Positions 8,839 through 24,139 of a stretch of DNA of 38,474 nt are shown here, in pieces. Each line of letters starts with the position of its first letter. The first letter of the stretch is position 1. The DNA is from Phycisphaerae bacterium (GTDB lineage Bacteria > Planctomycetota > Phycisphaerae > UBA1845): positions 1 through 38,474 of the forward strand of contig JAJDDT010000107.1 in assembly GCA_029260165.1 (NCBI GenBank), given 5' to 3'. The position numbers and the translations under genes were made by a program. The notes under the pieces are model-generated. The model saw nothing but the letters and a program-made list of their open reading frames with translations. It was not told where the DNA came from and made no database searches.

Positions 8839-9553
8839 CGGCGATCTCCGCGAGGGCTTCGACGTCGGCGTACAGGCTTTGAAAAGCGTTCCAGTCGTGC
8901 CTGGCTGATGCCGACATCGCATCTCGAATTCCGCCCAGCTTGCGATCGAATCGTTTCTCCGCGGCGGACACCACCTCGATCGGTGGGTTCGCGTCTTTCT
9001 CGCCCTTTAGCCACAACATGCCGCGGAGTGTGCGAACCAGCCCTTCGCCCGCATCAACCTCGACGGCTTCGAGAACGTTGTCGCGACCTGCGGCTGCCAG
9101 CAATCCCTGCCGCAAACCGATCAGGATGGCCTTCAGGTCTCGCTCGCATTGGAGCCTGACGTGATCATCTGCAAATTCGAGCTTGGTGAACGGATCGTCG
9201 CCGAAGACGGTGACGTGCGTTTGGGAAATGTCGATCAATTCCAGCGGAAATGTGTCTCGTGAAGCGTTGATGTAATCCCGCGTCATGACCAGCGGTGCGG
9301 AAATACGCAGCTTGCCGAGTCGGGCACCGTGGAGCGACAACGCCCGGACCATTTCAAGATCGACGCGGTCCATTTCCAGCACGTTGCGCGCGACGTGCAT
9401 CTTTGGCACGAACCGGCTTGTCGCGGCTGCTCCGAACAGTGTTAGCGATCGAACCGAGTCGCCGCCGATTTTTCGGATCAGTTCGGCATACTCGCCAATC
9501 GGGGTTCGAAGTTCCTCGGCGAGACGATCAAGATGCAGATCGATGTCGGTCAT
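8828..9553 (-). CDS. nucleotidyltransferase-like protein with degenerate active site
   Basis: This 241-residue soluble protein is the first gene of the TPM/LemA operon. It resembles, from memory of the family, a nucleotidyltransferase-like protein found beside LemA/TPM genes. Typical members have a GSA...SD-x-N motif and then a block like PLxxT...DxFPxExxDI...hxVLxGxDPF. The later block is clear here (APLVMTRDYINASRDTFPLE, LIDISQTHVTVFGDDPF, LRQGLL). The catalytic stretch instead reads LFGAAATSRFVPKMHVARNV, with no Ser-Asp pair, so transferase activity is doubtful. ATG 9553 has GGAG 8 bases upstream. A TATACT -10 box (9615-9620, - strand) lies upstream without a good -35. It overlaps the TPM gene by 11 bases. 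The family assignment should be tested by a structure search. Confidence 0.65.
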   Translation of the reverse strand: MTDIDLHLDRLAEELRTPIGEYAELIRKIGGDSVRSLTLFGAAATSRFVPKMHVARNVLEMDRVDLEMVRALSLHGARLGKLRISAPLVMTRDYINASRDTFPLELIDISQTHVTVFGDDPFTKLEFADDHVRLQCERDLKAILIGLRQGLLAAAGRDNVLEAVEVDAGEGLVRTLRGMLWLKGEKDANPPIEVVSAAEKRFDRKLGGIRDAMSASARHDWNAFQSLYADVEALAEIADAL

Positions 9554-9670
9554 GAATGTTCTCCGGGACGGTTTCGCATCGCGACAACGTAACCTCCGCG
9601 CCCGCTGGTCCGCAAGTATACAAAGCCGGAAAGTTTGGAATGGCCTACAGTTATGTACATCTTGCGGGCA

Positions 9671-9699
9671 TTTTCAACAGCCGTTGATCGCGATATGCT
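9671..9699 (+). promoter_or_regulatory. weak candidate selD promoter
   Basis: TTTTCA (9671-9676), a 17-base spacer and TATGCT (9694-9699), each 4 of 6 to consensus. The predicted start falls at about 9706, next to ATG 9707. This would give a leaderless selD mRNA and would explain why no ribosome binding site is visible. Confidence 0.3.
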
Positions 9700-9706
9700 C
9701 TCGTGC

Positions 9707-10756
9707 ATGACCGAATCGCGAAAAACACGGCTGACCAACTACGCCAGCTGCGCCGGGTGAGCGGGTAAGCTCCCGGTGGAGCTTACGACGCAGGTCGTGC
9801 GTCAACTGCAACCAGCCACACATCCCAACGTACTCGTCGGAACGGACCATTTCGACGACGCGGGAGTGTTTCGCATCAACGAAACCCAGGCGATCGTGCA
9901 AACCGTCGATTTTTTCCCGCCATTGGTGGACGATCCGTTCATATTCGGGCAGATCGCGGCGGCGAATAGTTTGTCGGACGTTTATGCGATGGGTGGAACA
10001 CCGATCACGGCGCTCAACATCGTCGGGTATCCGGACAAGGAGCTACCGGGCGAGATTCTGGTCGAGATTCTCAATGGGGGAAGCGAGCGGGCGAGGGCGG
10101 CGGGCGTAGCCATCATCGGTGGGCACAGCGTTCGTGACGGCGAGATCAAGTACGGGATGGCTGTCACGGGGTTGATCGATCCAAATCGGATCATCACCAA
10201 TGGCGGGGCGAAACCGGGTGACAAACTCGTCCTGACCAAACCGATTGGCAGCGGCGTGCTGACGAGCGCTGCCAAGGTGGGCAAAATTTCGGCGGGTGAA
10301 TTGCAACAGGCTATCGACGTGATGATCGAGTTGAATCGCGGTGGGGCAGACGCGATGTTGACCGTGGATGTGCACGCCGCCACCGATGTCACCGGCTTCG
10401 GGTTGTTGGGTCATGCTTTTGAGATGGCGACAGCGTCCGAGGTCACGATTGAGATCAACGCGTCATCGGTTCCACTTTTGGATCGAACGCTGGAATTCGC
10501 GAAACAGAATGTTGTTACGCGCGCCTACAAGGGCACACTCGCGCATCTCGGTGATCAGCTTGATATCAACAACGTGGATGAACATCTCGTCAACGTCCTG
10601 GCTGACGCGCAAACGTCGGGTGGTTTGCTGATCGCCGTCTCAGCCTCTGACGTTGACGCATTGATGGCTGCCTTGAAAACGGCAAAGATCAGCAGCGCTA
10701 CCGTTATCGGCGAGGTGGGCGGGGCAGGATCGAGCGCAATTGTCCTACGGCAATAA
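9707..10756 (+). CDS. selD: selenide, water dikinase SelD, a selenocysteine protein (UGA at 9758-9760)
   Basis: SelD makes selenophosphate from selenide and ATP; selenophosphate is the Se donor for selenocysteine tRNA and selenouridine. Read through an in-frame TGA at 9758-9760, the frame from ATG 9707 gives 349 residues (E. coli SelD has 347). It begins MTESRKTRLTNYASCAG, U18, AGKLP. The TGA sits exactly where the catalytic Cys17 of E. coli SelD lies, and the essential Lys follows three residues later (U18/K21 against C17/K20). Downstream are family blocks QTVDFFPPLVDDPFIFGQIA, ANSLSDVYAMGG, GGHSVRDGEIKYG, DVTGFGLLGHA and ADAQTSGGLL. Selenocysteine in SelD is known in some bacteria and archaea. 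A start at GTG 9776 would lose the catalytic residue. No selA, selB or selC lies in the window. Confidence 0.95.
9758..9760 (+). other. selD: UGA selenocysteine codon of selD
   Basis: In-frame TGA, codon 18 of selD, in the context AGC TGC GCC GGG TGA GCG GGT AAG. The frame is open on both sides with conserved SelD residues, and a SECIS-like hairpin begins four bases later. It should be annotated as Sec, not stop. Confidence 0.93.
9765..9786 (+). promoter_or_regulatory. bacterial SECIS-like stem-loop in selD
   Basis: GTAAGCTCC (9765-9773) pairs perfectly with GGAGCTTAC (9778-9786) around a CGGT loop (9774-9777): nine base pairs starting four bases after the UGA. Bacterial SECIS elements are hairpins just 3' of the UGA, within the coding sequence, with G near the start of the apical loop. 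All three points hold here. The apical loop is 14-17 bases after the UGA. Confidence 0.85.
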
Positions 10757-10813
10757 CAGCATCTGAATGGCATTTCGTTTCTTGTTTGCCCGGCAATGAG
10801 GTGGGCGGACCGC

Positions 10814-11683
10814 CTACAAATCGAGCTGTTTCGCGATGAACGGTTTGTTCTTCGCGAAATCAATGACGCCGCCACCGAGACGATGGTCGTGCGGGAATGC
10901 CAGCCAGGAACCGTGCTCACGCACGCGATCAAAAATGGTTTTCTTTTCCGCAATCGTTTTCAGCGGTTCGTTGTCGTAGGCCATCACCCACGGGACGCGA
11001 AGATGGCTCGCGGTCGGAATCGCGTCACCGGTCCAGATCAATTCGTGGTCACCGTCGAAGAAAACGGGCAACAATTGATACGGCGTGTGGCCACTGCTGA
11101 GCATGAACCGCACACCGGTCCAGGGCGTGGACGGATTGTCGCTTTCGACAAGGTGCAGCCGGCCTGTGGACTCGAGAATGTCAAAATCGCGTGGAATGAA
11201 CGAGGCGTGGTCTTTTTCGGTGGGGTTGTGGGCGTGGTGCCAATGGGCAGCGTGCAACCAGTGCGTCGCGTTGGGAAAAGCAAGCTTCGTTTTTCCTTCC
11301 GGCTCGTCTTCCCACTCGGTCAATCCCCCGTTGTGATCGAAATGCAAATGCGTCACGACGACGTCGGTGACATCAGATCGACGGATTCCCCAATGTTTTT
11401 CCAACGCGTTGTCGATCGCGTCGGGGTTATGCTGAATCGCAAACCGGGCGGCTTGCTTCTCATCCCATTTCGTGCCGTTGCCGGTGTCGACGAGGATGAC
11501 TGTCTTTCGATCCGATGACACAGCCACCAACGTTCGGGTGGCCAGCAGGATGCGGTTCTGGTCGTCAACGTCTTCATGCCCTTTCCAAAGCGCCTTGGGG
11601 ACGACGCCGAACATCGCCCCGCCATCGAGTCGAAACGTGCCGGTGGTCACAGAGACGATGTCGAACAGGCCTACGGTAATCAT
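10814..11683 (-). CDS. metallo-beta-lactamase-fold hydrolase
   Basis: This 289-residue cytoplasmic protein belongs to the metallo-beta-lactamase superfamily. The metal motif HxHxDH is THLHFDHNGG. Further metal ligands are expected at SSGHTPYQ and WTGDAIPT, and a C-terminal His lies in FPHDHRLGG. VILVDTGNGTKWDEKQAARF is the usual strand before the metal site. The layout resembles lactonase or alkyl-hydrolase-type members; the substrate cannot be told from sequence. It starts 23 bases after paaD and is the last gene of the paa cluster, so a role in handling a product or toxic intermediate of that pathway is possible (inference). ATG 11683 has no clear ribosome binding site. It converges on selD with 57 bases between them and no clear terminator. 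Confidence 0.85.
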   Translation of the reverse strand: MITVGLFDIVSVTTGTFRLDGGAMFGVVPKALWKGHEDVDDQNRILLATRTLVAVSSDRKTVILVDTGNGTKWDEKQAARFAIQHNPDAIDNALEKHWGIRRSDVTDVVVTHLHFDHNGGLTEWEDEPEGKTKLAFPNATHWLHAAHWHHAHNPTEKDHASFIPRDFDILESTGRLHLVESDNPSTPWTGVRFMLSSGHTPYQLLPVFFDGDHELIWTGDAIPTASHLRVPWVMAYDNEPLKTIAEKKTIFDRVREHGSWLAFPHDHRLGGGVIDFAKNKPFIAKQLDL

Positions 11684-11706: not shown

Positions 11707-12261
11707 TTAACCCACGGGCTTGATGTGTTCAAACGTTTGCAAACAGTCGTTGCAGTAGTGAATGGACCGACAAAGCGCCGAGCCGAAGGGCGATTCCATG
11801 GTGGTGTTTTTGGATGAGCAAAACGGACAAGGCACGTCAACGAGCAGGCCTGCGTCCACCTCGCGGTTGTCCAATCTGCGTGGTGGTGCGAGGCCGAAGG
11901 CTTCGAGCTTGGCAAGACCGGTTTGCGTAATCCGATCGGTGGACCACGGTGGATCAAAAACAATGTTAACGAGAACATTTTTGAAACCGGCTGCGGTCAT
12001 CGCCTCACAAATATTCGATTTCATCAAATCAATAGCAGGACAGGCGGCAAACGTGGGTGTCATGCGAATGACGGTCTTTTCCGGGGTGCTCTCCACACCG
12101 GCGATCATGCCCATCTCCAAAACCGAGACAGCCGGTATCTCCGGATCCTTCACCTGATCGAGAACCTGCCGGATGCGTTCCAAATCGATTGGTTTTGTGC
12201 CGACCTGATCCATGAACTCACCATTTTCGATCGCGAACAAGCTCCCCAGGACGTCTACCAC
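11707..12261 (-). CDS. paaD: phenylacetyl-CoA epoxidase subunit PaaD-like (MIP18 family)
   Basis: PaaD is the MIP18/DUF59-type subunit thought to help metal-cofactor assembly of the phenylacetyl-CoA 1,2-epoxidase. The 184-residue frame shows the N-terminal block QVLDQVKDPEIPAVSVLEMG, the conserved Cys motif TPTFAACPAIDLM, and the PaaD C-terminal zinc-binding region CPFC, SPFGSALCRS, YCNDC. GTG 12261 overlaps the end of paaC by 7 bases and is used here. ATG 12213 is the alternative; it would start at MDQVGTKP, closer to the family's usual N-terminus. It is fourth in the paaABCD order. Confidence 0.9.
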   Translation of the reverse strand: MVDVLGSLFAIENGEFMDQVGTKPIDLERIRQVLDQVKDPEIPAVSVLEMGMIAGVESTPEKTVIRMTPTFAACPAIDLMKSNICEAMTAAGFKNVLVNIVFDPPWSTDRITQTGLAKLEAFGLAPPRRLDNREVDAGLLVDVPCPFCSSKNTTMESPFGSALCRSIHYCNDCLQTFEHIKPVG

Positions 12262-13043
12262 TGAGCCGTCGGCTCGAGACGGTAAACCTGCTGCATTTCA
12301 TCGAGCAACAACTGCAACTCGGGCAGATGCTGACCCCTGCGTCCACCGTGTTTTGGTGTCACATCACCGGGGATGGTCAGTCCCGCATGATCCAGCATCG
12401 AATGCACCTCGTCGCGCCACGTCTCGAAAAGGCCGGATTCGGTCGTACAAAAGCCATGGTCTGCGATGATTTGTTCAAACGGTGTCGGTTCAAAAAGCCC
12501 GAGGGCGTGCCCGTACAACGTATCCACGCTTCTTTGCATTCGCTCGCGACTTTCGTCCGTTGCGTCGCCAAGTCGTGACACCCACATGCGCGAGTGCATC
12601 ATGTGATACTTCTGCTCGCCGCGAACCTTTCGAGCCAACTGTGCGAGTGGTGCGTAGGTCCCATCCGAAAGCGACGCCAACCGATGCGTCTTGTACACGT
12701 CGTAAAAATACTGACGCACCGTACTGAACGCCCAATCGCCACGGTCCAACAATGTCAGCGAGGCACAACGGTAGTCCTGCGCACTGCGCGTGAACGCGAG
12801 CGTGTCCGGATCAGGCTCGCCCAAATCATGCAACAACCGGTAATACGCGACGGCTTGCCCAATCTCGTCCTGCGCCAGGGACGACATGGCGATGTCAGCC
12901 TCAAGGATCGGGGCCAATCCCGTCCACACCGAATTTCGATGGCCCAAAATCAGATCGTCATCCGCAAGGCGATAGATCAGATCGATCAACGCGTCTCGGG
13001 ATTCACCTGATACCGAATCGGGCGATGCGAACGTCTTCTTCAT
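12255..13043 (-). CDS. paaC: phenylacetyl-CoA epoxidase structural subunit PaaC
   Basis: PaaC is the non-catalytic ferritin-like subunit that pairs with PaaA in the epoxidase core. The 262-residue protein matches the family: LIYRLADDDLILGHRNSVWT, GLAPILEADIAMSSLAQDEI, GQAVAYYRLL and VRGEQKYHMMHSRMWV. Family members have lost most metal ligands, which fits the structural role. ATG 13043 overlaps the paaB stop by 4 bases (ATGA), so the two are translationally coupled. Confidence 0.93.
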   Translation of the reverse strand: MKKTFASPDSVSGESRDALIDLIYRLADDDLILGHRNSVWTGLAPILEADIAMSSLAQDEIGQAVAYYRLLHDLGEPDPDTLAFTRSAQDYRCASLTLLDRGDWAFSTVRQYFYDVYKTHRLASLSDGTYAPLAQLARKVRGEQKYHMMHSRMWVSRLGDATDESRERMQRSVDTLYGHALGLFEPTPFEQIIADHGFCTTESGLFETWRDEVHSMLDHAGLTIPGDVTPKHGGRRGQHLPELQLLLDEMQQVYRLEPTAQW

Positions 13044-13375
13044 GATTGCTCACCGGTTTCATTGGCCTCTCGCAACGATTTGGGGCGTTTTGTTGTTTGT
13101 GCGCGAACACGTTTGGTTGTTTGATAACCGTAGGCTTCGCGATAGGTCTTGTCTGTTCCGTGTTCAAAAATATCGACATCGTTGTAGCTGGTGCCGACAA
13201 TTGAATCCGACGGCACCACCCACAAGCTGACGCACGCCTGACGACGACCATATTGCTCCTTGGCCATCACGATCGCACTCTCGGAGTCCGGCGCATGAAT
13301 CGCCCCCACATGAACATGAGGCTCGCCTCGCGTCTGCTGATGAAACACCTCAAACACCCGCCATTGCGTATCCAT
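13040..13375 (-). CDS. paaB: phenylacetyl-CoA epoxidase subunit PaaB
   Basis: This small subunit bridges PaaAC units in the epoxidase. It is 111 residues, the normal size. The family core is present: WRVFEVFHQQTRGEPHVHVG, then AIHAPDSESAIVMAKEQYGR, ending in the WVVPS strand. The C-terminal tail is basic and Thr/Lys-rich. It lies 33 bases after paaA and overlaps paaC by 4 bases. Confidence 0.93.
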   Translation of the reverse strand: MDTQWRVFEVFHQQTRGEPHVHVGAIHAPDSESAIVMAKEQYGRRQACVSLWVVPSDSIVGTSYNDVDIFEHGTDKTYREAYGYQTTKRVRAQTTKRPKSLREANETGEQS

Positions 13376-13408
13376 AAATCGTCACCTCTTCGCTGATGAA
13401 TCGTCGGT

Positions 13409-14398
13409 CTAGTTCACGCTCACCGGCATGCGCTCATCACGGGCAGCCACTTCCAACGCCTCGCGAACCCACGCGCCTTCCACATGGGCCATCTTTCGTG
13501 TTCGCAATCGCAACGCACTGGCAGGACCGTTACCGCGAACAACGCTCAAAAATTCCGCCCAGTCGGGTTCGGTGTAGTGCCAATCGCCCGTGTCCTCGTC
13601 GAGTCGCAGATTCCATTCCTCGGGAATGGTCAATCCCAGTTCGTAAATCTTCGGGACATACTGCCGGAGAAACTCCTGACGCTGCTCGTCGTTGCTCTTC
13701 AGTTTAACCTGCCATTTCATCAGAATCTCGTTGTGTCTGGATTCTTTGTCCGACGGACCATGGAACATCATGATCGGCTTCCACCAGCGATTGAGCGCGT
13801 CCTGCAACATGTCATGCTGCTTTTTTGTTCCGCCGGCGAGCGTGATGCACATGTCATAACCATGCGTGAGATGAAACGCTTCCTCGTAGCAAATACGCTT
13901 GAGCGCCCGACCATACGGACCGTACGACCCCTCCGCCATCATCCGTTGATTAACGATCGCACCCGCGTCGATCAGCCAGGAAATCGTCGCGACATCCGCC
14001 CACGTCTCTGCGTGATAATGAAACACGTTGGAATACTTGGCTTTCCCGCTGATCAACTCTTCGACCATTTCTTCGCGTGATTTCCCAAGCGTCTCAGCTG
14101 CTCGGTATAGCAACTGTGCGTGACCGACCTCGTCCTGCACCTTGGCAATCAGCGCCAGTTTGCGCTTCAGATTCGGAGCATGCGGAATCCATCCACCCTC
14201 GGGCAATGCGCCACATATTTCGCTGTTGGCATGAACGTGGATCAGGCGAATCAATTGCCGGCGGTAGGCATCGGGCATCCAGTCCCCAGCCTCAACCTTG
14301 TCGCCATGCGCGATTCGGGCTTCAAAGGCAGCCAAGCTCTCCTCGTATCCCGGGTCGCCAAGCTTGTCATTTTGTACCACATGATTGCAACGAATCAT
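13409..14398 (-). CDS. paaA: phenylacetyl-CoA epoxidase catalytic subunit PaaA
   Basis: PaaA is the di-iron subunit that epoxidises the ring of phenylacetyl-CoA with O2. The protein is 329 residues. The ferritin-like iron ligands are recognisable: [15 protein letters not shown] and [14 protein letters not shown] in the first helix pair, and [14 protein letters not shown] in the second. The C-terminal family block [20 protein letters not shown] is also present. It starts 15 bases after the TetR gene and begins the run of paa structural genes. No paaE reductase lies in this cluster, so the electron donor must be encoded elsewhere or be different. Confidence 0.95.
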
Positions 14399-14412: not shown

Positions 14413-15000
14413 TCAGCTCAACCGTCGACGCAAACCGTCGAAAATGTACTCCGCCATCATTTTGCCAAGCTCGTCGCCCGTCAGTTTTCCGTCAGGCTTG
14501 AACCATTGATAAACCCAGTTCAACGACGACAGCACAAACAACGACGCAAACACCTCGTCCGCGGTGGCCAACAATCGCTGCTCCATTCCCTCGCGAATCA
14601 AACCCCGAAACATCTGCTCATATTCATCGCGACGAGCCGCAAACAATGCTCGCCGTTCTGCTGACAAATGTCGCCACTCGGTCGAGTAGACAGCCGCTGC
14701 GTCGAGATCGTTCGTGATAACCCCCACATGCGCGATGATCGCCTGACGCAATCTCGGCATCACCGCCTGATCCTGCGCGAAAATCGGCGACAGCTTTTCA
14801 AAAAACCGGTCAGCCGAGTGATTGACAATGTCCCAGAGCAGGTCGTCCTTGCTGTTCACATGAGCGTAGAGGCTACCGCCCTGAATACCAACAGCCTCGG
14901 CAATGTCGCGAACCGACGTCCCCGCATATCCGCGATCACGAAAAAGCTTGACCGCCACACGGCGAATCTGCTCTTTTCGACTTTCGTCAATCGCCGCCAT
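14413..15000 (-). CDS. TetR-family regulator of the paa cluster (KstR2/PaaR-like)
   Basis: This 195-residue repressor has an N-terminal TetR helix-turn-helix (~10-57: [35 protein letters not shown]). Its ligand domain ends [19 protein letters not shown], similar to the C-terminal part of KstR2 (compare VSVRWYRPGGPLTAQQVG, from memory). Regulators of this group sense acyl-CoA thioesters. ATG 15000 has GAGGAG 9 bases upstream. It is the first gene of the paa operon, 15 bases before paaA. A palindrome matching the KstR2 consensus lies just downstream of its promoter's -10, so autorepression with release by a CoA thioester (perhaps phenylacetyl-CoA) is inferred. Confidence 0.9.
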
Positions 15001-21013: not shown

Positions 21014-22360
21014 ATGGATTACACACAAATCAGCACAGAGGACGCCTCACACATGCTGGCGACGATCGGTGTTGAATCGATTGACGACTTTTTCACCAAC
21101 GTCGGCGAGGAGTATCACCTGAAAAAGTTGCTCGATATCCCAATGGGTATCAGTGAACCGGAGTTGCTGGCTGACATTGCTGATCTCGCAGGCAGGAACA
21201 AGCCTGCGGCGGATGGGGAAATGGTGTGTTTCCTGGGGGGTGGCGTGTACGACCATTTCAGCCCCACCGTTGTCGATCATCTTGCGACGCAAAGCGAGTT
21301 TTTGACCGCGTACACACCCTATCAAGCCGAGGCGTCGCAGGGGGCGTTGCAGGCGTTCTATGAATATCAAACAATGATCAGCACGCTCACCGGCATGGAG
21401 GTCGCCAACGCGTCGCTCTATGAACAGGCGTCTGCGGTGGCGGAGGCGGTGTTGATGGCCGGCGCGATTACCAAACGCAACAAGGTTCTGTTCGCATCCG
21501 AGGCCGTTCATCCCGACACGCGTCAGGTCATTCGCACGCTCACCTATGAACAACCCGTCGAACCGATTCGTCTGCCCGCCAGGGATGGGCTGGTTGATTT
21601 GGATGCGTTGGCGGATGCGTTGGATGAGACCGTTGCATCGGTCGTGATTCAATCGCCGAACTTCTTTGGGTTAATCGAGCGTGTCGCAGACGTGGTGAAG
21701 TTGGCCCATGACGTTGGGGCGTTGGTCATACAATCCGTTGACCCGATTTCCTGCTCCCTTTTGAAGCGCCCAGGCCAACTGGACGTGGACATCGCCGTCG
21801 GAGAGGGGCAGTCACTTGGGATTCCGATGTCGTACGGGGGGCCATTCCTGGGGTTCTTCGCCTGCCGCGAAAAATACCTCCGCAAGATGCCCGGGCGTAT
21901 CGTCGGTATGGGTAAGGATGCGAACGGCAAACGGGGATTCTGTTTGGCATTACAAACGCGCGAGCAGCACATCAAACGTGAACGAGCGACGAGCAATGTC
22001 TGCACGAATCAGGGCCTGTTGGCGTTGCGAGCAGCCGTCCACATGGCTGCCATGGGCAGGACGGGGCTGCGGAAACAGGCGGAACTGTGCTTTGACAAAG
22101 CCCATTACGCAGCCAACCGCATTCAATCTTTGGACGGCTACGAATTGAAGTTCGACGGACCGTTTTTCCGCGAGTTTGTCGTGCAGGCCAAACATAACGT
22201 CGGCAAGCTGCTCGATCATTGTCGGTCGAGAAACATTCTCGCGGGTGTCCCGTTGGGACAATGGTTTGACGGGATGGATGACTGCTTCCTTCTGGCAGTC
22301 ACAGAGAAGCGTACAAAAGACGAGATCGACGCCCTCGCAGAAGCGCTCGAAACGGTGTGA
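21014..22360 (+). CDS. gcvPA: glycine dehydrogenase (decarboxylating) subunit 1
   Basis: This is the N-terminal half of the split glycine cleavage P protein. With GcvPB it decarboxylates glycine and passes aminomethyl to the lipoyl arm of the H protein. It is 448 residues, the usual size. Family blocks: CFLGGGVYDHFSPTVVDHL, FLTAYTPYQAEASQGALQAF, YEYQTMISTLTGMEVANASL, and GQSLGIPMSYGGPFLGFFAC. ATG 21014 follows GGGAG. Its stop is one base before the start of the zinc-ribbon gene that separates it from gcvPB. gcvT and gcvH are not in the window. Confidence 0.96.
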   Translation: MDYTQISTEDASHMLATIGVESIDDFFTNVGEEYHLKKLLDIPMGISEPELLADIADLAGRNKPAADGEMVCFLGGGVYDHFSPTVVDHLATQSEFLTAYTPYQAEASQGALQAFYEYQTMISTLTGMEVANASLYEQASAVAEAVLMAGAITKRNKVLFASEAVHPDTRQVIRTLTYEQPVEPIRLPARDGLVDLDALADALDETVASVVIQSPNFFGLIERVADVVKLAHDVGALVIQSVDPISCSLLKRPGQLDVDIAVGEGQSLGIPMSYGGPFLGFFACREKYLRKMPGRIVGMGKDANGKRGFCLALQTREQHIKRERATSNVCTNQGLLALRAAVHMAAMGRTGLRKQAELCFDKAHYAANRIQSLDGYELKFDGPFFREFVVQAKHNVGKLLDHCRSRNILAGVPLGQWFDGMDDCFLLAVTEKRTKDEIDALAEALETV

Positions 22361-22361
22361 G

Positions 22362-22649
22362 ATGGCTACGCCGGACTGGGTCGTGGGTGGTGTTTTTCTG
22401 CTGGTGGTGGTCACGACCGGTTTGGCATTGCTCGGGTTGGTCATGATTTGGCGAAATGGATATGTGAGAGGATGGCGGGCGTCGCAGACGTCCCCGCCGA
22501 TGTGTCCAAAATGCCATTACAATCTCAGCGGTCTGCGCGAGTGTCGGTGTCCCGAGTGTGGTTTTGAATTCGAGTTGGAGCAGGTTGCGATGTTCGTGCC
22601 CCGTCGCACACCAAAAAAGAATAGTTGCAGAGAAACGAGGGACTCGTGA
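22362..22649 (+). CDS. small zinc-ribbon membrane protein between gcvPA and gcvPB
   Basis: This 95-residue protein has a membrane segment at ~7-31 (VVGGVFLLVVVTTGLALLGL), then a zinc ribbon, CPKCHYNLSGLRECRCPECG, and a basic tail. Ribbons of this CxxCxYxLxGL...CPECG type are very common in planctomycetes, in proteins of unknown function. The start codon ATG 22362 comes one base after the gcvPA stop, and its own stop overlaps the proposed gcvPB start (GTGA). The three genes must therefore be co-transcribed. Whether it has any role in glycine cleavage is unknown. Confidence 0.85.
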   Translation: MATPDWVVGGVFLLVVVTTGLALLGLVMIWRNGYVRGWRASQTSPPMCPKCHYNLSGLRECRCPECGFEFELEQVAMFVPRRTPKKNSCRETRDS

Positions 22650-24139
22650 GCGTGGTTGCAATGGAAATTGAGACGCGATTACCACAGGATGAGGATCATC
22701 CACTTCTGTTCGAACAGGGTACGCATGGCGCGTCGGCAGCTTCGATGCCGGTTTCGGATGTGCCCGCGATTGACCGGGCGTCGGTCGTTGATCCAGAGTT
22801 GCTTTCAGGCAATCCACCGGAAATGCCCGAGATCGGTGAACTCGATTTGGTGCGTCATTACACCAGACTTGCCCATCGATTGTTCAGTGTCGACGCCAAT
22901 TTTTATCCGCTCGGCAGTTGTACGATGAAATACAACCCGCGCGTGAATGAAAAAGCAGCCGCCATGCCCGGGTTTGCAAGCCTGCATCCGTATCAGCGCG
23001 AATCCGACTGTCAGGGGACGCTCGAATTGCTCTACAGGCTTCGAAACTATCTCGAGGAAATTTCCGGGTTGGCTGAGGTAACATTGCAACCATCTGCCGG
23101 CGCGCAGGGCGAAATGACCGGGTTGATGATTATCAACGCTTATCATCGCAGTCGCGGTGAGACGCGAACGCAGGTGCTCACACCTGACTCCGCGCACGGC
23201 ACCAACCCTGCCTCGTGCACGATCTGCGGACAGCAATCCACGACCGTCAGGTCCAAACCCGACGGCAGGGTCGACCTCGACGATCTTCGATCCAAAGTCG
23301 GTACCAACACGGCTGCTTTGATGATCACAAATCCCAACACCGTCGGCGTCTTCGATGAGCAGATTTCGGAGATTGCGGAAATTGTCCACGGTTGCGGCGC
23401 ACAGCTCTACCTCGACGGGGCGAACATGAACGCCATGCTCGGTATCGCGCGTCCCGGTGATTTCGGTGTGGACGTGATGCACTTTAATACACACAAGACA
23501 TTCAGCACTCCGCACGGTTGCGGTGGACCGGGGGCGGGCCCCGTGGGCGTGGCTGAACACCTGCGCGATTTTCTTCCAGTTCCGCAGGTCACCAGGCGTG
23601 ACGACGGAACGTATGCCTGGTGCCACGATCGCGAAAAGAGCATTGGCAAGGTCCGCTCTTTCTACGGTCAATCCGGTGTGCTGGTCCGCGCGTATACCTA
23701 CATTCGTTCACTCGGTGCCGACGGTCTTTTGAACGTCTCGCAAAAGGCCGTCCTCGCAGCAAACTACCTCGCTGCCCGACTGCGCCACCGCTATCACTTG
23801 CCCTTCCCGCCGCCCTATGCCCATGAATTTATTCTGATCCCGAAATTCGACACGGGCAATGTGTCGGAGCTGGACATCGCCAAGAGGTTGATCGACCACG
23901 GTTTCCACCCGCCGACCATGAGTTGGCCTATCCAGCACTGCCTGATGATCGAACCGACCGAAACAGAATCACTGCCCACGCTCGACGCCTTCGCGGACGC
24001 ATTGCTCGCCATCGCGGACGAGATTGAAACCGACCCTGAAAAAATCAAATCGTCACCACATACGACCCCGATCACCAGAATGGACGAGGTCGGTGCCAAT
24101 CGCCGCCCCAACGTCCGATGGCAACCCAACGTCTCATAG
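22646..24139 (+). CDS. gcvPB: glycine dehydrogenase (decarboxylating) subunit 2
   Basis: This is the PLP-carrying half of the split P protein. With the start used here it is 497 residues. The PLP lysine is K284 in NTHKTFSTPHGCGGPGAGP. Other blocks: YPLGSCTMKYNPRVNEKAA, LHPYQRESDCQGTLELLYRL, PSAGAQGEMTGLMII, PDSAHGTNPAS and YLDGANMNAMLG. GTG 22646 overlaps the preceding stop by 4 bases; GTG 22652, with GAGGGA at 22637-22642 nine bases upstream, is equally possible, and ATG 22661 is a third choice. The residues at stake are few and not conserved. Confidence 0.95.
   Translation: MSVVAMEIETRLPQDEDHPLLFEQGTHGASAASMPVSDVPAIDRASVVDPELLSGNPPEMPEIGELDLVRHYTRLAHRLFSVDANFYPLGSCTMKYNPRVNEKAAAMPGFASLHPYQRESDCQGTLELLYRLRNYLEEISGLAEVTLQPSAGAQGEMTGLMIINAYHRSRGETRTQVLTPDSAHGTNPASCTICGQQSTTVRSKPDGRVDLDDLRSKVGTNTAALMITNPNTVGVFDEQISEIAEIVHGCGAQLYLDGANMNAMLGIARPGDFGVDVMHFNTHKTFSTPHGCGGPGAGPVGVAEHLRDFLPVPQVTRRDDGTYAWCHDREKSIGKVRSFYGQSGVLVRAYTYIRSLGADGLLNVSQKAVLAANYLAARLRHRYHLPFPPPYAHEFILIPKFDTGNVSELDIAKRLIDHGFHPPTMSWPIQHCLMIEPTETESLPTLDAFADALLAIADEIETDPEKIKSSPHTTPITRMDEVGANRRPNVRWQPNVS

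Follow-up and report, generated by a model that had tools for sequence, protein, structure and literature searches.

We analysed a stretch of 38,474 nucleotides (the window) from a Phycisphaerae bacterium, which is contig C10 of a 4.43 Mb genome in 119 contigs (estimated at 100% completeness and 1.71% contamination). The window contains a selD gene with an in-frame UGA codon near its start, and the following features were located on and around it:

9694..9699, plus strand, -10-like hexamer TATGCT, starting 13 nt 5' of the ATG; Shine-Dalgarno-like motif absent
9707..10756, plus strand, selD (selenide, water dikinase), complete, 349 aa with UGA as Sec; TIGR00476, Pfam AIRS and AIRS_C
9758..9760, plus strand, UGA codon for the predicted Sec18, opposite Cys17 of E. 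coli SelD in the alignment
9765..9786, plus strand, second hairpin of 9 bp with loop CGGU, between the UGA and the putative SECIS; loop begins 13 nt past the UGA; role doubtful
9776..10756, plus strand, ORF given by the mechanical ORF list, GTG start, 326 aa, without residue 18
9787..9803, plus strand, putative bSECIS hairpin: stem 9787-9792/9798-9803 (6 bp), loop GGUCG at 9793-9797, 32 nt past the UGA, -7.9 kcal/mol

Translation of selD with TGA as Sec gave 349 residues with a single recoded codon (U18) and zero further stops. The N-terminus reads MTESRKTRLTNYASCAGUAGKLP..., with U18 followed by K21. The whole protein reached 374 bits against the equivalog-level NCBIfam model TIGR00476 (selD), above the curated cut-off of 125, with a match along residues 8-314, and so the full-length SelD that the original prediction expected from reading through TGA 9758-9760 was recovered. 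With the TGA treated as a terminator, SelD is truncated and starts at GTG 9776, as the original prediction stated and as the mechanical ORF list has it.

A phmmer search against solved structures aligned SelD across residues 6-338 with 3u0o, which we take to be E. coli SelD. Residues 18 and 21 stood opposite Cys17 and Lys20 of 3u0o (residue numbers counted on the phmmer alignment), which is the placement that had been proposed, and the N-terminal Cys/Sec plus Lys pair of SelD is therefore present as U18/K21. Cys17 and Lys20 are presumably the catalytic residues of the E. coli enzyme, and Sec18 would, by family membership, have the catalytic role in selenophosphate synthesis. E. coli SelD has Cys where the planctomycete SelD has Sec, and a SECIS is thus unnecessary there.

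The hairpin at 9787..9803 (GACGCA-GGUCG-UGCGUC), which was absent from the original prediction, is the actual cis-acting evidence. The bSECIS model of PMC13188914, of which part of the text was available, asks for a loop of 3-9 nt, a stem of 4-16 bp, a G in loop positions 1-2, a distance of 16-37 nt from the UGA and an MFE of at most -7.5 kcal/mol; the hairpin has a loop of 5, a stem of 6, GGU, 32 nt and -7.9 kcal/mol, respectively. The same model was also passed by 33 out of a set of 600 UGA stops from this genome (each ending a frame of 100 codons or more in the fetched stretches), so passing it proves little by itself. GGU was found at the loop position in 35 of the 41 Sec selD genes versus 8 of the 27 Cys genes. 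Over the 40 distinct sequences among those 41 Sec genes, 210 of 240 stem cells (87.5%) formed standard pairs. When synonymous codons were shuffled between the Sec genes, paired cells averaged 194.0 and never rose above 205 in 1000 shuffles; with synonymous resampling (1000 trials) the average was 152.3 and the highest count 171. In stem registers shifted by 1 to 3 positions, 14 to 66% of the cells were paired, the 66% coming from the -2 shift. In the 27 Cys genes, 55 of 162 cells were paired at the same stem, and 256 of 1000 of their own shuffles (mean 52.3) were as high. As pairing in the Sec genes exceeded every shuffle and the Cys genes stayed at shuffle level, the hairpin is selected beyond the protein, solely where the UGA is present. 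The SECIS of E. coli fdhF has the apical sequence GCAGGUCUGC, which resembles GCAGGUCGUGC of the planctomycete selD hairpin, and its distance to the UGA is shorter than in the planctomycete selD. The 32 nt between UGA and loop found here come close to the upper limit of the 16-37 nt range (PMC13188914). An Rfam scan of the window returned nothing at gathering score.

The second hairpin offers another reading, that Sec insertion is real and the functional SECIS is 9765-9786 (loop CGGU), not 9787-9803. Of the two helices it is the stronger one in the window, it carries a G within the first two loop positions, and it dominates the 40-nt fold around the UGA. The window's own fold there was only moderately better than that of shuffles (z -2.92 for 40 nt; z -1.82 for 61 nt). 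Pairing of 9765-9786 in the 40 Sec genes (161 of 360 cells) somewhat exceeded what synonymous resampling gave (mean 149.0, sd 5.5, maximum 166), but it equalled the shuffle level (mean 160.8) and did not exceed the pairing of registers slid 1-3 positions toward the 3' end, so strength in the window is not clearly matched by conservation beyond the protein. Its loop also begins 13 nt past the UGA, under the 16-37 nt range given in the available part of PMC13188914, and it is the hairpin at 9787-9803 that beats all 1000 shuffles. With pairing no higher than in synonymous shuffles, 9765-9786 was rejected as the likely element, and we regard a SECIS role for it as improbable.

We then examined the codon itself among relatives. 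The class sample comprised 198 genomes of Phycisphaerae, scored for SelD and selA above cut-off: SelD was detected in 68, selA in 69, and both in 66. Two genomes had SelD without selA (G175, 87% complete, and G178, 53% complete), three had selA without SelD, and 127 had neither gene. Codon 18 was readable in 68 selD genes from 67 genomes (G005 was left out, as its SelD match falls short of codon 18), and it was TGA in 41, including the gene of the window, TGC or TGT in 27, and nothing else; the in-frame UGA stands where homologues have Cys. Among relatives with named records, 79 out of 80 were readable at this codon (55 TGA and 24 Cys codons), and the planctomycete loci L021-L035 had TGA in 15 out of 15. 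The closest named relative was a Phycisphaerae metagenome-assembled genome (JANQQK010000086.1, 77% identity), and the following 14 closest loci were Phycisphaerae or other planctomycetes.

The peptide upstream of the UGA was conserved in relatives. The script located a start codon in 39 of the 40 Sec relatives, G151 being the exception. In 34 of these 39 (30 ATG and 4 GTG), as in the window, the start lay 17 codons 5' of the TGA. We looked in particular for relatives with a true stop and an unconserved upstream frame, a pattern that would speak against Sec-SelD, and found the TGA and the frame conserved.

In the order of the window, the TGA form of selD was present in 33 of the 34 sampled genomes, one of which has an additional Cys copy. 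G012 alone of the 34 has no SelD above cut-off, and its selA match likewise falls short of the threshold, a sign that this genome may have lost the Sec trait. A quick tree of 129 SelD proteins (residue 18 masked, without bootstraps; G178, G188, G058, the planctomycete loci L021-L035, at least some of which are genomes already in the class sample, and L056, whose codon 18 was uncovered, were left out) placed the window inside a starred set whose 36 rows are all Sec, 31 from its own order and 5 from other families of the class. G112 (Sec) and the Cys copy of G065, both from the order, were placed elsewhere. This topology points to inheritance of Sec-SelD within the order, with exceptions.

The original prediction also implied that the genome carries selA, selB and selC, and their absence would have weighed against it. 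All three genes were present, with selB directly preceding selA on one contig (C5), and with selD, selBA and the tRNA-Sec gene each on separate contigs:

C5:17760-19640, selB, 361.3 bits summed over two parts
C5:19682-21040, selA, 541.6 bits
C64:75190-75284, tRNA-Sec (selC), the only one, 68.1 bits, above the Rfam cut-off

ARAGORN called the same gene on C64 as tRNA-SeC with anticodon TCA. The genome therefore holds the full set, selA, selB and selC, by which selenoprotein use is recognised. TGA is at the same time an ordinary terminator of other genes in this genome, including selB and selA.

Further selenoproteins, suggested as a possibility in the original prediction, were also found as candidates. 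At least six other genes contain one in-frame TGA at a CxxC-type, CxxU-type or GPx active-site position, all in thiol/peroxide redox families:

L171, membrane Prx-like protein, FYRGFWUTSC, AhpC-TSA match with one TGA
L173, TlpA/ResA-like protein, FFAHGUPPC, AhpC-TSA match with one TGA
L175, Prx-like protein, YRAFWUPFC, AhpC-TSA match with one TGA
L185, glutathione peroxidase, NVASKUGLT, below the AhpC-TSA cut-off, PF00255 115.8 bits
L233, SelW-like, the sole such match in the genome, MSIKYCMQU, one TGA; TIGR02174 above cut-off, NF041051 just below
L234, CMD/AhpD, the sole such match in the genome, ECHYUTISH, one TGA; TIGR01926 159.1 bits

AhpC-TSA matches numbered 16 in the genome, 4 of them with one TGA. 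L185 aligned with phospholipid hydroperoxide glutathione peroxidases, its U opposite the Cys of NVASQCGLT, and the U of L234 aligned opposite the second Cys of the CxxC motif. None of the 9 thioredoxin matches (PF00085) had an internal stop. A Sec-FdhA was not found (TIGR01591 gave 8 matches, 0 above cut-off and 0 with an internal stop), and 2-selenouridine synthase (SelU) gave zero matches in the genome. Since five families were searched for TGA besides SelD (FdhA, AhpC-TSA, thioredoxin, Rdx and CMD), the list is a lower bound.

GGU-loop hairpins of at most -5 kcal/mol, a threshold picked after inspecting the seven Sec-UGAs, were found behind 5 of these 7 (SelD and 4 of the 6 others) versus 9 of the 600 UGA stops. 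When contiguous stems and the published -7.5 kcal/mol limit were required, 2 of the 7 passed (SelD and L173), against the 33 of 600 given above. The hairpin scan found no GGU hairpin after the UGA of L171 and L233. Finally, a genome search for the pattern TGA...GCAGGTNNTGC gave 25 forward and 10 reverse matches, with 10 and 12 for the reversed control. We read 22 distinct forward-strand placements in 30 loci, of which 8 were open on both sides, selD included, and by eye these forward-strand matches yielded no convincing gene besides selD. The idea that SelD is the sole selenoprotein, retained for selenouridine synthesis (discussed in PMC1794560, available in part), was rejected because a SelU match was absent and because of the six other TGA-containing redox genes.

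The remaining two explanations of the UGA fare much worse. It is very improbable that the UGA is a true stop (through decay or a sequencing error), with a short SelD made from GTG 9776 or the gene dead: the mechanical ORF list does contain such a frame (9776..10756), but TGA occupies the same codon in 41 of 68 selD genes of the class and in all 15 planctomycete loci, the upstream peptide, the start distance and the hairpin are conserved, and six other genes of the genome have TGA at a redox-active position. Reading of the UGA as Trp or Cys without selenium, by an altered code or a near-cognate tRNA, is just as implausible: nothing in its favour turned up, and against it stands that tRNA-Sec, selA and selB are all present, that TGA terminates normal genes and that the hairpin accompanies the UGA version of selD.

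The codon, the open frame, the hairpin, the machinery genes and the other TGA-containing genes are all there in the DNA. We consider it very likely (at a probability of roughly 0.97) that selD is a selenoprotein gene in which UGA 9758 is read as Sec through SelB bound to the GGU-loop hairpin 9787-9803. The ribosome would read the UGA with Sec-tRNA delivered by SelB sitting on that hairpin; Sec18 and Lys21 would then act in the synthesis of selenophosphate from selenide and ATP, as Cys17 and Lys20 do in E. coli SelD, and SelA would use the selenophosphate to form the Sec-tRNA needed both for SelD and for the other thiol/peroxide redox selenoproteins, at least six in number. By the known pathway this would make a loop, with SelD supplying the selenium donor from which its own Sec is made. 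Sec insertion, catalysis and this feedback of SelD on its own synthesis are predicted from the protein families concerned.

Upstream of selD, a consensus scan of 9450-10850 found no sigma-70 promoter. In 17 of 40 Sec genes a -10-like TANNNT began 10-19 nt 5' of the start, and in 16 of those the distance was 12-15 nt. Shuffling gave a mean of 3.2 and a maximum of 8; the 10-19 nt range was picked after looking at the data. A Shine-Dalgarno-like motif was missing from 16 of the 17 genes. The selD mRNA may be leaderless in this family. Elsewhere in the window, three genes on the minus strand (11707-14398) resemble the ring-oxidation part of phenylacetate degradation, with a PaaD-like zinc ribbon/FeS assembly protein and two proteins of the PaaA/PaaC family, next to a TetR regulator (14413-15000). 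We also noted two adjoining glycine dehydrogenase (P-protein) genes at 21014-24139, like the split GcvPA/GcvPB form.

The Cys-type SelDs of the class sample showed a different arrangement. With motifs chosen after some of the sequences had been read, 20 of the 27 had an N-terminal CxC...CPCD, 18 had a C-terminal CxPC, and 17 had both, while the same script flagged none of the 40 Sec relatives for either motif (the SelD sequences of G178 and G188 among them being truncated). The C-terminal part was CMD/AhpD by Pfam in the three examples examined (L148, L166 and L219), whose N-terminal segment had no Pfam or NCBIfam match at E up to 10. Cys-SelDs with AhpD/CMD plus a CxC...CPCD...CxC segment (L148, L166, L219, L205, L200 and others) come from other families of the class. 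A distinct case was L140:307-2529 (G065, of the window's family), which combines a NifS-type cysteine desulfurase and a Cys-SelD in one 741-aa frame; G065 also has a free-standing Sec-SelD (L195), and NifS-SelD fusions are already known (PMC2398784 and PMC4561486, both available in part).

The available text of PMC4561486 places all SelD extensions and fusions on the N-terminal side, so a C-terminal SelD-AhpD fusion looks new relative to that survey, and we met no mention of a SelD-AhpD/CMD fusion in the accessible parts of the literature on SelD and AhpD/carboxymuconolactone decarboxylase. This fusion is more unusual than Sec-SelD itself. As a speculative proposal that we hold to be rather unlikely, Phycisphaerae might use two alternative SelD designs, either a free-standing Sec enzyme or a Cys enzyme in one chain with the N-terminal CxC...CPCD...CxC segment and the C-terminal AhpD-type CxPC domain; in the latter, reduction or selenium hand-over, otherwise the task of Sec, would fall to the fused thiol domains. 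In the SelD tree, 22 of the 26 Cys rows fell in one starred clade, so the link between Cys and fusion may go back to one event in the phylogeny and does not prove compensation. If the proposal were true, the C-terminal fusion would be an exception to the all-N-terminal statement of PMC4561486.

Sec-containing SelD has long been known in bacteria: 38 were listed in PMC1794560 (2006), and 19% of the SelD genes detected in a 223-genome set carry Sec, always at the identical position (PMC4561486, 2015), as far as the available parts of both sources go. The window shares with these bacterial SPS-Sec the family, the Sec position, the existence of Cys homologues and selA/selB/selC, and differs only in lineage (an order of Phycisphaerae) and in the SECIS loop lying 32 nt from the UGA. 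The original prediction was right that Sec-SelD is known elsewhere; the novelty of the lineage was smaller than it suggested, since the accessible part of PMC4807772 already describes Sec machinery and selenoprotein genes for planctomycetes of other genera. Its planctomycete selenoproteomes P1 and P2 are of the same phylum and, like the genome of the window, have complete Sec machinery and several redox selenoproteins, but 2-selenouridine synthase occurs in both P1 and P2, and fdhA is a putative selenoprotein of P1; neither was found here. In the literature covered (main texts in part, supplements excluded) we met no report of Sec-SelD in Phycisphaerae. The planctomycete Sec-SelD is a further, well-supported case of a long-known bacterial enzyme.

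Within the families searched, the selenoproteome of this bacterium would be made up of redox enzymes and lack a Sec formate dehydrogenase. In 33 out of 34 sampled genomes of a little-studied planctomycete order, the enzyme that opens the selenium pathway is itself encoded with a Sec codon. Gene finders that halt at UGA would drop the active-site residue of SelD and break off six or more further genes of the genome at a redox-active residue.
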